DNA from: Bdellovibrionales bacterium
Lineage (GTDB): Bacteria > Bdellovibrionota > Bdellovibrionia > Bdellovibrionales > Bdellovibrionaceae
NCBI GenBank assembly: GCA_018266295.1
Contig: JAFEAQ010000010.1
Location: 62,001 to 126,000, forward strand
Direction: 5' to 3'
DNA length: 64,000 bases
A program made the position numbers and the translations under genes. The stretch's first letter is position 1; every line of letters begins with the position of its first letter. The notes beneath the pieces are model-generated. The model saw nothing but the letters and a program-made list of their open reading frames with translations. It searched no databases and was not told where the DNA came from. Below, one piece after another: positions 42,261 to 46,202 of the stretch.

Positions 42261-42689
42261 CCCGCCCATAGCACTCACGTAATGGCCACCAAAAAGGCAC
42301 AGACACCTTTATATAAAAATCCCAGCGGCGCCCTCGAAAAAGTCCAATATAAAAACCGCAGCGCCTCCCCGCATACCTCACCTGGCCGACCACGATGGTC
42401 GGTCAGCCCCGTGAGCTGCGCTGCCCTTCGGGTCTCACGGACGGATGGCCCACGCAAAGTAAGCGACTGGGCGAGCACGCAAGTCTCATCGCACATCACG
42501 GAGAATCAAGATCCTTCACGTGATCTTAAAGAACGCATAAGCTGACATCATCTTTGATAAAACTAAAAAGAGATGAGAAAGAAAATAGAAAGAAGAGAGA
42601 GAAGTAGAAATCTTAAATCTTCTTATAAATCATTTACTTAGCACTAAATCCATTGACCTCATATCAACAAATAATTATATTGCCCGTGA
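42261..42689. other. 429-base region upstream of the HUH-transposase-like gene
   Basis: No convincing gene. It carries two hairpins: 42382-42406 (11-bp stem including one G-T pair, loop CGA) and 42409-42440 (CCGTGAG/CTCACGG with an inner CCC-TTC-GGG). The last 120 bases before the transposase-like gene are A-rich (AGAGATGAGAAAG type). A frame of 87 codons at 42282 crosses the hairpins but has no ribosome binding site and unlikely composition. A structured RNA or transposase target repeat is possible. Confidence 0.55.
42382..42440. repeat. Two adjacent hairpins upstream of the transposase-like gene
   Basis: First hairpin: CCGACCA/TGGTCGG with loop CGA, extended by CTGG/TCAG (one G-T pair). 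Second: CCGTGAG/CTCACGG with an inner small stem. Their place about 250 bases before a REP-associated-type gene makes them candidate recognition sites. Confidence 0.5.
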
Positions 42690-43343
42690 ATGAAAAACTC
42701 CTCCTCCCCACTTTTTGATTATCATGACTCTGGTGCTACAAAACGTAAGTACGGAAGAACCACTCATGGAGGAATTGATTCCAAAGGTAAGAGAAAAGAA
42801 TACCGTCCACTTTCAGAAAAGAAATGGATTCACCTCACCCTTAAGTCAGAAAAAGCAAAAGGCCCATGGAGCTTCCTCACTCCAAAGAACCAGCAAATCA
42901 TCCGCGAGATCCTTAAATCCAAATCAAAAAAATGGGGCGTACAGATTGCTGAAGTCGTCAACGTCGGGAATCACCTTCACATTAAGCTTAAATTTAAATA
43001 CCGCGAGGGCTTTCAGAACTTCCTAAGATCCGTAACAGCCCTCATCGCAAGAAAGATCACCAACGCTCGCCGTGGATATAAGATTACAGGTCAGCAAATC
43101 TCAGCTCAAACAAACTTAAAGCTATCAAAAGATACCAAAACGACAGATAGAAAACCTTCTGAAGAAAAATTCTGGCAAGGCCTCGCCTTCACTCGCGTGA
43201 TCAAAACCCGCATCGAAGAACTTCAGCTCCGTGGCTACTTCAAAGCAAACCGCCTTCAAGCCGCCAAAGGCCAGAAAGCCCGCGAGGAGTACTTACAGAA
43301 ATTCAATGAATGGATCACATACATACGGCAAGGGACTGCGTAA
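42690..43343 (+). CDS. HUH (Y1/REP-associated) transposase-like protein, altered Tyr site
   Basis: A 217-residue protein with the fold order of IS200/REP-associated Y1 transposases: strand WIHLTLKS (46-53), helix, strand with the HUH motif VGNHLHIKL (His95 and His97), helix FQNFLRSVTALIARKI, then KFWQGLAFTRVIKTRIEEL (160-178), which aligns with the W-Q-x-x-F-Y-D-x helix of the family. Where the catalytic Tyr is expected, Phe167 stands. The only nearby Tyr is Tyr183 (RGYFKAN). The basic Lys/Arg-rich N-terminus is typical for DNA binding. No Shine-Dalgarno; TATATT lies 8 bases before the ATG. A truncated relative with the same Phe is at 23125-23323. Confidence 0.75.
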   Translation: MKNSSSPLFDYHDSGATKRKYGRTTHGGIDSKGKRKEYRPLSEKKWIHLTLKSEKAKGPWSFLTPKNQQIIREILKSKSKKWGVQIAEVVNVGNHLHIKLKFKYREGFQNFLRSVTALIARKITNARRGYKITGQQISAQTNLKLSKDTKTTDRKPSEEKFWQGLAFTRVIKTRIEELQLRGYFKANRLQAAKGQKAREEYLQKFNEWITYIRQGTA

Positions 43344-43397
43344 GCGCAGAGGCCGCGCGGGAGCCCAGCCTTCAGTGCCTTCTTGCGAGGTTTTTTT
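43344..43397 (+). terminator. Possible terminator after the transposase-like gene
   Basis: A GC-rich imperfect hairpin (GCGCAGAGGC pairing with GCCTTCTTGCG) is followed after three bases by TTTTTTT at 43391. The stem has mismatches. It lies just before the stop of the convergent plsC-like gene. Confidence 0.4.
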
Positions 43398-43400
43398 CAA

Positions 43401-44141
43401 TTACGGGGATGAGTGCATGTTTGCTGGGAAGTACGGGAGCATTTCGTTGCGCACTTTTTCTTGCAGGACTGGGCGGTCTTTGATGTCGTAACCCTCGGTT
43501 GAGACGGGTTCTAAAACATCAATCGTGATTTCACGAGTCCACACATCGCTGTTCGGAACCCAATGCCCCTTTGGCAAAATCTTCGCAGCGCCGCGGATCA
43601 CAACCGGCACCAGCGGGGCGCGCGCATTGATCGCAAATACGAAAGGTCCTGCTTTAAAAGCACCCAGCTTTTCTTCTTCCTGACGAGTGCCCTCGGGAGC
43701 GAGCGCAAAGCGCTCTCCGCGCTGCAAACGTTCTTGGGCCGCCTCATAGACCCTGAACACTTCATCGCGCTTCTGGCGGGCGATAGGCAAAGCTCCGAGC
43801 CGGCGCATCGCAAGTCCAAACACCGGGATCTTAAAGAGCTCTATCTTTGCGCCAAAACGAAAGCCGTTCAAAGCCCCTTGCATCGCAAACACATCAAAGA
43901 AGCTGGTGTGATTAAACAAGAATACGCAGCCACCCGCTGGAATATGCTCAGCACCGATGACTTTGATTTTTACTCCGAACATCCAGCAAGAAACGCGGCC
44001 CCAAAGCTGAACGACGTAGTCGTCCCATTTCTTGTTATTGAAAAGCAGATTCACCGCCATCACTAAGACAGAGAAGAAAATCAGCACAAAGGGATATGCC
44101 ACGGTCATTACAATGCTACGAAGGCTTGCGATCAATCTCAT
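43401..44141 (-). CDS. 1-acyl-glycerol-3-phosphate acyltransferase (PlsC family)
   Basis: A 246-residue protein with one or two N-terminal membrane segments (about 9-33), then the acyltransferase motifs: FNHTSFFDVF (the H-x4-D catalytic pair), FRFGAKIELFKIPVFG, LAPEGTRQ (motif III) and LVPVVIRG (motif IV). It makes phosphatidic acid from lysophosphatidic acid at the inner membrane. It overlaps the upstream gene by four bases (ATGA), so it is coupled to a protein of unknown function. Other acyl acceptors cannot be excluded. Confidence 0.88.
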   Translation of the reverse strand: MRLIASLRSIVMTVAYPFVLIFFSVLVMAVNLLFNNKKWDDYVVQLWGRVSCWMFGVKIKVIGAEHIPAGGCVFLFNHTSFFDVFAMQGALNGFRFGAKIELFKIPVFGLAMRRLGALPIARQKRDEVFRVYEAAQERLQRGERFALAPEGTRQEEEKLGAFKAGPFVFAINARAPLVPVVIRGAAKILPKGHWVPNSDVWTREITIDVLEPVSTEGYDIKDRPVLQEKVRNEMLPYFPANMHSSP

Positions 44142-45241
44142 ACTCCACTTTCTGAAAACAGGCGCTTACGAGCAGCCAGTCGCTGGCGCTCTTTGTAAGC
44201 CTCATGTTCTGAAGGCCCCGACAGAATCGCCTGATGAGCGGACTGGTCCATGATTTGGACTTCAAACGGGTAAAAGAAACTAAAGGATTCTTTACCACCG
44301 ACCGGCTGAACATGAATCAGCTTACGCGTGATAAATTTAATAAAACGATAATCAGCACCCGAGAAGAAGTTCTCTTTACGGAATAGCTGAGCGTCGCCGC
44401 CCACATTTGCCAAACGTTCTTCAAAGATCTGCTTTAACTCCAGCTCCGTATAATCTTTGCCGGTCTTATAGAGCTCTTCGCAAACCTGCAAAAACACATC
44501 GACCGGATACAGGTTGTTCGACGACTGGTCCGGCATGATGTGCGGGAAGCTCATAATGTTTTCTTCGACCAAGAAACGAATCACCTGGAAAGAGTCAAAC
44601 AAAGACCGCGTCACAAAACGCACGCCCAGTTTATCAAAAATCTTCATCGCCAAAGCATCGGGCTTCGCAAGGAGCTTAATCACCGTGCTGGAAGAAGTCT
44701 TAAACGGTTTCACCTCAAAGCCCAAGAGTTCCACCGGCTGCTGCCCGTCTTCACGCTGACTTTTCAAATAAGCTTTGTGAGTGGTTCCGTCATGATAGAT
44801 CGCCTTTTGAAACGGCGTCAGAATCTGGCTTTGAATTTCTTCACTGAAGCTTGAGAAGAGATCATTTTCTGCATGAACATAAACGTGCATGCAACGAAGG
44901 ATCGCACACGACCAGCGCTGCAGGCGTTTTTCAGAATCTTCGTGGGAACTTGCCAGCAACAACAAACGACGGATATCGCCCAAAGTTTTGCGCTCACGCA
45001 AAAGCTCCGGCACTTCTTGCAGCTCAAAACCCAATTTATCGGTGATCAGAACTAAAGCACGGCGGTGATAATACCAAATGCGCTCCACATCCTGAGGATT
45101 GGAGAAATCAAAACCGTAACACTGAATGAAAGATGTCGCCTGTTCGAGAGATTTAATATTGAGCCTTGGCGTATCGATCGCTGAGCGCCCGCCCGCAACA
45201 GAATGCAACATGTCTGAATCAAACAAAAACTTCTTAGGCAT
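44138..45241 (-). CDS. Conserved hypothetical protein, TIGR04552-like
   Basis: A 367-residue cytoplasmic protein from the ATG at 45241 (a GTG lies three bases upstream). I recall TIGR04552/TIGR04562 proteins of this length from Myxococcus and Bdellovibrio, and the ending of this one (HVQPVGGKESFSFFYPFEVQIMD) resembles them; this is memory, not a search. The segment AMKIFDKLGVRFVTRSLFDS and the following VIRFLV is reminiscent of RelA/SpoT-type nucleotidyltransferases (D-x-x-G-x-R), but the other synthetase motifs are not obvious. Coupled to the plsC-like gene by an ATGA overlap. Function unknown. Confidence 0.7.
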   Translation of the reverse strand: MPKKFLFDSDMLHSVAGGRSAIDTPRLNIKSLEQATSFIQCYGFDFSNPQDVERIWYYHRRALVLITDKLGFELQEVPELLRERKTLGDIRRLLLLASSHEDSEKRLQRWSCAILRCMHVYVHAENDLFSSFSEEIQSQILTPFQKAIYHDGTTHKAYLKSQREDGQQPVELLGFEVKPFKTSSSTVIKLLAKPDALAMKIFDKLGVRFVTRSLFDSFQVIRFLVEENIMSFPHIMPDQSSNNLYPVDVFLQVCEELYKTGKDYTELELKQIFEERLANVGGDAQLFRKENFFSGADYRFIKFITRKLIHVQPVGGKESFSFFYPFEVQIMDQSAHQAILSGPSEHEAYKERQRLAARKRLFSESGV

Positions 45242-45325
45242 CACTGTGATTAATCACAAGCTGTGCGTCATGTGGCAAGTAAAAACGCAGAGCTTCTAGG
45301 ATTGCTCAAATTGAGAGCAGATTTA

Positions 45326-45545
45326 GAGCCTATCCTAAAATTAAACAAATCCTGAACGTTTTGAATTTGTCTTTGATCGCGAAGGAAGCGGCGAAGATGT
45401 AGCCGCAGCTACTTCGAAGCTGCTTCTGACAAAGAGCAAAGGCAAATTCAAAACGCCCCTTTGGGGTGTAAATAAAAAGGGTCCCCTGACTGCATTGGAC
45501 CCTTTTTATTTACATTCAGGGTTTGGTTAATTTTAGGATCGGCTC
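45326..45545. mobile_element. 220-bp MITE-like element with 34-bp inverted repeats
   Basis: Ends are inverted copies: 45326-45359 and 45512-45545 match at 30 of 34 positions (mismatches at 6, 20, 25 and 32), starting GAGCC. The element is flanked by TTA on both sides (45323-45325 and 45546-45548), a 3-bp target duplication of the TNA type known for some IS5-family groups. Inside are two strong hairpins: a 19-bp stem (45357-45375 with 45437-45455, one G-T pair) enclosing smaller hairpins, and a 17-bp perfect stem (45468-45513). It has no gene, so it is non-autonomous. The right TTA is the stop codon of the lipoprotein gene. Confidence 0.85.
45468..45513. terminator. Bidirectional terminator carried by the MITE-like element
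   Basis: A perfect 17-bp stem: GTAAATAAAAAGGGTCC (45468-45484) with GGACCCTTTTTATTTAC (45497-45513), 12-base loop. Each strand reads GGGTCC, loop, GGACCC, TTTTTATTT, a rho-independent terminator in both directions. For the minus-strand lipoprotein gene it begins 33 bases after the stop. Confidence 0.85.
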
Positions 45546-46202
45546 TTAGTAAACGAAAGAGCACGTAGAGATTTGGAAAGAGCCCAAAGTGCCTGAGCTT
45601 GGATAATTGCCCGCAACAGCTGTTTGGTAGTTGGCGTAGCTGACAGTGCCCGTTGCCATTGAGCTTGAGAAGCTGCCTGTGACAGTGATTTCACCGTAGT
45701 TGTCTTTAAACACGACTGAGAAGGTCTTTGCTGACAAGTTCACAGTGCCTGAGCTTGCAGATGAGAAATTGATTGGATAGGCCTGAACAACAGCTCCTGT
45801 GGAATCTGTTTGGCCAACGTAGGAGTCCGTCACTGTTAACTTGAGATTTGTTTGACTGATATTCAAATTGCCTGAGCTATCAAAGGCAATATGACCTTCC
45901 ATCGAAACACCCGTGCTGGTGCTTGAGCTACTGCCGCTGATGGTGCCGAAGTATGATGGATCTATGGAAGATGACAAAAGCCCCTTCACACGTTGTTCGA
46001 AAGTATAGCTAGAAGTACCGCCGCCATCGTAAATACGGCCGGTTGTTTGCGTGGTCGTACCGCAGCTCGAAGAACCACTGCCAGTCACCCCGGTTGCAAT
46101 GCCGGTTGCGCGCGCAGAACGAAGATCCGTGTTCTGAGAACACGCCACCATGGTTCCAAACACCACAACACTCAACATGATTTTCATCAACTGGGTGAAC
46201 AT
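45546..46202 (-). CDS. Lipoprotein, Ser/Gly/Thr-rich
   Basis: A 218-residue protein. The signal has a lipobox (GTMVACSQN, Cys21). A Gly/Ser/Thr-rich linker follows, then beta-rich sequence with many Ser and Thr (VNLSAKTFSVVFKDNYGEITVTG style alternation). Three Cys remain, one at the C-terminus (STCSFVY). No family recognised. GAGG precedes the ATG by seven bases. The stop codon TAA is the right TTA of the MITE target duplication, so the insertion just spared the frame. Confidence 0.75.
   Translation of the reverse strand: MFTQLMKIMLSVVVFGTMVACSQNTDLRSARATGIATGVTGSGSSSCGTTTQTTGRIYDGGGTSSYTFEQRVKGLLSSSIDPSYFGTISGSSSSTSTGVSMEGHIAFDSSGNLNISQTNLKLTVTDSYVGQTDSTGAVVQAYPINFSSASSGTVNLSAKTFSVVFKDNYGEITVTGSFSSSMATGTVSYANYQTAVAGNYPSSGTLGSFQISTCSFVY

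Follow-up and report, generated by a model that had tools for sequence, protein, structure and literature searches.

A 220-bp segment of a 64,000-nucleotide stretch of Bdellovibrionales DNA (positions 45326-45545; 'the window' below is that whole stretch) is very probably a MITE with IS5-type ends that was mobilised in trans and inserted into the stop codon of a lipoprotein gene, bringing a predicted terminator with it. The 220 bp would be a non-autonomous element with ends of the NF033580/DUF4096 class, which duplicates TNA, and an IS5-type transposase, since gone from the genome, would have moved it into the lipoprotein gene at its TAA stop codon, which would have stayed intact through duplication of the 3-bp target. 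A perfect stem in its core with T runs on both strands should then bring about intrinsic termination in both directions, so that lipoprotein transcripts would end in the element, uncoupled from the TIGR04552-family and acyltransferase genes.

The ends of the element are 34-bp terminal inverted repeats matching at 30 of 34 positions (left, GAGCCTATCCTAAAATTAAACAAATCCTGAACGT, 45326-45359 on the plus strand; right, 45512-45545 on the minus strand), with TTA at both flanks (45323-45325 and 45546-45548). This is the arrangement described in the initial annotation, and both the sequence and a repeat search agree with it; the arms returned by the search (45325-45359 and 45512-45546; 35 nt, 89% complementary) include one flanking base on each side. 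By chance, about 1e-7 such arm pairs would be expected within 300 nt in the 64-kb window, and a matching TTA at both flanks would occur once in 64 cases. The right TTA is, as had been noted, the stop codon of the minus-strand lipoprotein reading frame at 45546-46202, TAA when read on that strand.

Between the repeats lie an internal stem-loop with nested hairpins (45357-45455; 22-nt arms 45357-45378 and 45434-45455, 91%; z -8.4) and a perfect stem (45467-45514) with a T-rich tail on both strands, separated by a mini hairpin, CCCC-TTT-GGGG (45456-45466). The predicted fold pairs nearly all 220 bases. As RNA the element reaches -106 kcal/mol (z -12.2) and as DNA a z of -14.8, and none of 200 shuffled sequences was equally stable; such folding of the whole element is typical of MITEs (PMC10969869). 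The list of open reading frames in the window contains none of at least 80 aa that crosses the element, in keeping with the earlier view that it has no gene, and Rfam yielded no match to it. With a length below 500 bp, terminal inverted repeats and no transposase gene, the element has the general make-up of a MITE.

The tips, GAGCCTATCCTAAAA and GAGCCGATCCTAAAA, are of IS5 type by comparison with intact elements, which we sought around transposase genes by looking for inverted ends bordered by the same TNA. One of these (L088) is an intact 866-bp IS5-family element, TAA|GAGCCTATCCCAAAA ... TTTTGGGATAGGCTC|TAA, whose terminal repeats match at 16 of 16 positions and whose two overlapping reading frames match NF033580 (IS5 family), PF13340 (DUF4096) and PF01609 (DDE); none of 50 shuffles of this locus yielded a comparable call of inverted ends with TNA. 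Its tip is identical to the first 15 bp of the left repeat at 14 positions. The flank and tip read TAA|GAGGCTGTCC in a second element (L104; 877 bp) and TAA|GAACCTATCCCAAAA in ISPrst3 (869 bp), annotated as IS5-like on a Proteus plasmid. All the targets have the form TNA, being TTA at our element and TAA at L088, L104, ISPrst3 and a solo end elsewhere in the host genome. Judged by both tips and the 3-bp TNA target, the ends belong to the NF033580/DUF4096 class of the IS5 family, and these intact elements bear out the initial description as MITE-like with IS5-type ends and a TNA target. The likeness is confined to the first 15-20 bp, with no similarity beyond them to the IS5 elements examined, and as such establishes no descent from a particular IS5 parent; it resembles what is seen in a MITE that retained the tips alone.

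A contig assigned to the Nitrososphaeraceae (L021) carries in its first 288 bases a decayed IS5 transposase that ends in the tip of the element, after TAA. In this archaeal sequence TAA|GAGCCTATCCTAAAATTAAC adjoins the decayed C-terminus, and both here and in L088 the tip doubles as code for the transposase's C-terminal residues, ..LG-stop. Since the tip encodes the transposase C-terminus in these two cases, the tip TTTTAGGATAGGCTC of our element may be a relic of a transposase-encoding IS5 end.

In the phylum, DUF4096 occurs in 29 of 369 genomes, and L088 comes from one of these. The initial annotation had found no parent in the window, and the same holds for the whole host genome (G000; 4.22 Mb in 23 contigs, 99.99% complete): the full-length transposase gene that it envisaged is not there, as neither PF01609 (DDE_Tnp_1) nor PF13340 (DUF4096) has a match. 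With no IS5-type transposase in its host genome, the element is stranded.

Sequence search of the host genome located the complete copy once and, separately, a solo right end. MITEs usually occur in multiple copies, although this is not strictly a defining feature; with one complete copy and one solo end, we call the element MITE-like, with a low copy number. The solo end (G000:C11:313417-313461) corresponds to the outer 45 bp of the right end (45501-45545), with 87% identity and an E-value of 2e-8. It sits in a 64-nt gap bounded by the TAG that closes a 272-aa gene and the ATG that opens an Mpo1-like gene, in a neighbourhood for which we found no conservation in relatives. TAA stands directly outside its tip, and another TAA just before the similarity starts. 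The expectation of further copies was thus borne out by this end with its TAA flank and not by a second complete copy, and the spread of such elements that the initial annotation set out to explain is not supported by a genome with this content and no IS5-type transposase.

A single complete copy and a second copy that is likewise truncated are also what a dead full-length IS5 would leave if its transposase had been lost by internal deletion in place, so that the 220-bp unit was never mobile. We regard this as quite improbable: the core, made of complete nested palindromes, does not resemble IS5 transposase DNA, and the solo end contains one arm of the terminator stem besides the tip, so tip and terminator were already joined before.

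Outside the host, the tip, with up to 3 mismatches allowed in 24, was absent from the other genomes of the order (141 genomes), and no match comparable to the element's end was found among the 369 genomes of the phylum other than G000. A phylum search with an artificial double-ended tip gave, besides G000, weak matches only, mostly AT-rich or terminator-like. The pattern GAGCCKATCCTAAAATTAA had five matches across 85,000 genomes, about the number expected by chance; among these, the one beside the IS5 transposase remnant in L021 looks real. Viral, plasmid and phage collections gave short chance matches at most.

The insertion lies in a conserved cluster on the minus strand. The predicted lipoprotein gene (45546-46202), which has orthologues in the same position in most relatives of the family, is upstream of the element; 78 nt of native intergenic DNA (45245-45322) remain before the TIGR04552-family gene (44138-45244; first ATG at 45241), and an acyltransferase gene (PF01553; 43401-44141) comes third. 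The TIGR04552 gene is present in 63 of 66 family genomes, and we inspected its upstream DNA in 59 family relatives. In 56 of these the lipoprotein gene is kept, and none of the 56, in which both genes remain together, shows a trace of the element at the orthologous place. The spacing between the two genes is 1-122 nt in 54 of the 59 (38-55 nt in 25 of the 27 forming the set of closest relatives), against 301 nt here; without the element and one TTA it would be 78 nt, inside the relatives' range. Compared with related genomes, then, the sequence identifies the element as an insertion. These 54 empty sites supply the comparison foreseen in the initial annotation, except that all come from other genera, and for this reason we can only infer the duplication of TTA.

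A further approximately 27 nt, between the element and an intergenic motif common to the relatives, are also extra DNA in this genome. Among relatives with short spacing (L055-L079), 42-49 nt separate the lipoprotein stop from the TIGR04552 start. They contain an invariant GCGTCTTG and, after it, a hairpin that takes in part of the TIGR04552 gene's Shine-Dalgarno region; four of its eight consensus pairs are changed on both sides. This arrangement, which is altered in the present genome, may exert translational control. The two exceptions to the spacing among the 56 relatives carry other extra DNA. In G007 (L171) it amounts to 528 nt in the same intergenic place, a hairpin followed by coding-looking sequence. 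In G071 (L061) it amounts to 1053 nt, and an IS with inverted ends ACTGGAYCCTTTAA abuts the TAA of the orthologous lipoprotein gene. Its transposase is IS1-like (NF033558, E 4e-12, below the model's cut-off; no Pfam match), and a strong terminator-like hairpin, CCCGGGGCC..GGCCCCGGG-ATTTTTTT, lies just inside its end. Mobile DNA therefore landed independently at the same gene end.

The perfect stem, reported earlier as 17 bp, is indeed perfect (100%) and is 18 bp long (arms 45467-45484 and 45497-45514); on each strand it ends GGACCC-TTTTTATTTAC (z -6.4 and -6.6). Stable, containing G+C and followed on both strands by a GGACCCTTTTTATTTAC tail, the stem has the structure of an intrinsic terminator, and we predict that it acts bidirectionally. 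The stem and T runs of the bidirectional terminator first proposed are thus present, and the terminator itself is a structural prediction, on which a simple scan with a loop limit of 8 nt made no call, the loop being longer. In the relative G051 (L012) a terminator-like hairpin has near-identical arms (AAATAAAAAGGGTC..GACCCTTTTTATTT), so the style of the stem is that of the group's own terminators.

Given the short gap between the genes in most relatives, the lipoprotein, TIGR04552 and acyltransferase genes are likely to be co-transcribed there. Here, transcription of the lipoprotein gene probably stops within the element and does not reach the other two. At this junction a few relatives (L166) show a hairpin resembling a terminator, so a break in transcription there is evidently tolerated. 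These hairpins, together with the resemblance of the 18-bp stem to ordinary terminators of the phylum (L012, L050), are what one would expect if the 220 bp had evolved in place as an RNA structure native to the lipoprotein gene, a regulator or a terminator, and were transposon-like in looks alone. We consider that highly improbable in view of the 34-bp repeats with IS5-family tips and the TNA repeat, the recurrence of one end beside an unrelated gene and the 56 relatives that keep both genes together with no trace of the element at the orthologous place.

The host genome has a different set of transposases, with 18 Y1_Tnp (RAYT-like) matches (loci L024-L041; in the window, 42362-43363). Nine of the 18, including the one at 42690-43343, form a single family, 84-88% alike over about 1 kb. 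A REP, CCTGGCCGACCACGATGGTCGG, has 16 occurrences, and for 12 of these a Y1_Tnp gene lies no more than 700 nt away; the two thus seem to multiply jointly, as a cassette, as opposed to one RAYT serving many free REPs. One of the 18 matches lies 2 kb from our element, which is itself strongly structured as a single strand, and a palindromic element mobilised by Y1/RAYT transposases might look so. IS200-type transposition, though, generates neither long terminal inverted repeats nor a TNA repeat, both of which the element has, and the resident cassettes have their own REP within 700 nt, of which none of the 16 genomic occurrences is inside the element. Mobilisation by RAYT is exceedingly unlikely, and we rejected it on the absence of the REP motif and the presence of the long repeats and TNA flanks.

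For the MITE with IS5-type ends, the exact position at a stop codon calls for no special mechanism, because TAA is one of the TNA targets and, once duplicated, gives back the stop codon. The placement follows from the TNA target together with selection against insertions within genes, and by itself is no sign of benefit. Since TAA is among the TNA targets and duplication restores the stop codon, gene ends could offer TNA-targeting IS5-type elements a safe landing place, where those bearing bidirectional terminators might act as mobile insulators that uncouple the genes of an operon. We put this forward tentatively, as an idea that we think rather doubtful. Should it be correct, the IS1-like insertion in G071, with its terminator-like hairpin at the orthologous stop, would be a parallel case; and a real preference of TNA-targeting elements for stop codons would make gene ends a refuge for them in general. 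The present case is a miniature element of IS5 type, stranded in its genome, that has probably placed a terminator between genes which are neighbours in nearly all relatives.

Our literature search found nothing on MITEs in connection with Bdellovibrio and nothing on insertion into stop codons. A MITE with IS5-type ends is an already known kind of element, of which this is a well-supported example. With the NF033580/DUF4096 class (L088, L104 and ISPrst3) it shares the tips (GARCCTATCCYAAAA in L088 and ISPrst3) and a 3-bp TNA repeat, in our element a putative target duplication; those elements are 866-877 bp long and encode a transposase, whereas ours has neither a transposase nor internal similarity to them. 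MITE464 and BrickBuilt of Porphyromonas gingivalis are known MITEs with IS5-type ends, likewise non-autonomous and intergenic and with terminal repeats common to IS5-family elements, but they are multi-copy and match full-length IS5 elements in the same genomes (PMC4596501); our element occurs in full only once, contains a predicted terminator and has no parent in its genome. QMITE2 of Coxiella burnetii, as given in a figure legend, has terminal repeats of 23-29 bp around a core of 113-145 bp and a transcript that folds in its entirety (-113, in the units used there), similarities that stand beside a 7-9 bp duplication, another sequence and multiple copies (PMC10969869). SPRITE of Streptococcus pneumoniae is also a small interspersed repeat with a structure like a Rho-independent terminator (PMC10969869, PMC3049150), although its sequence and host are different. 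A 2024 review, in which SPRITE figures as a terminator-like repeat, considers it 'conceivable' that MITEs bring terminators (PMC10969869). The present element, which differs from the known cases in its low copy number, the lack of a resident parent and a perfect stem of its own that has T runs on either strand, offers a concrete and testable case of such a terminator.
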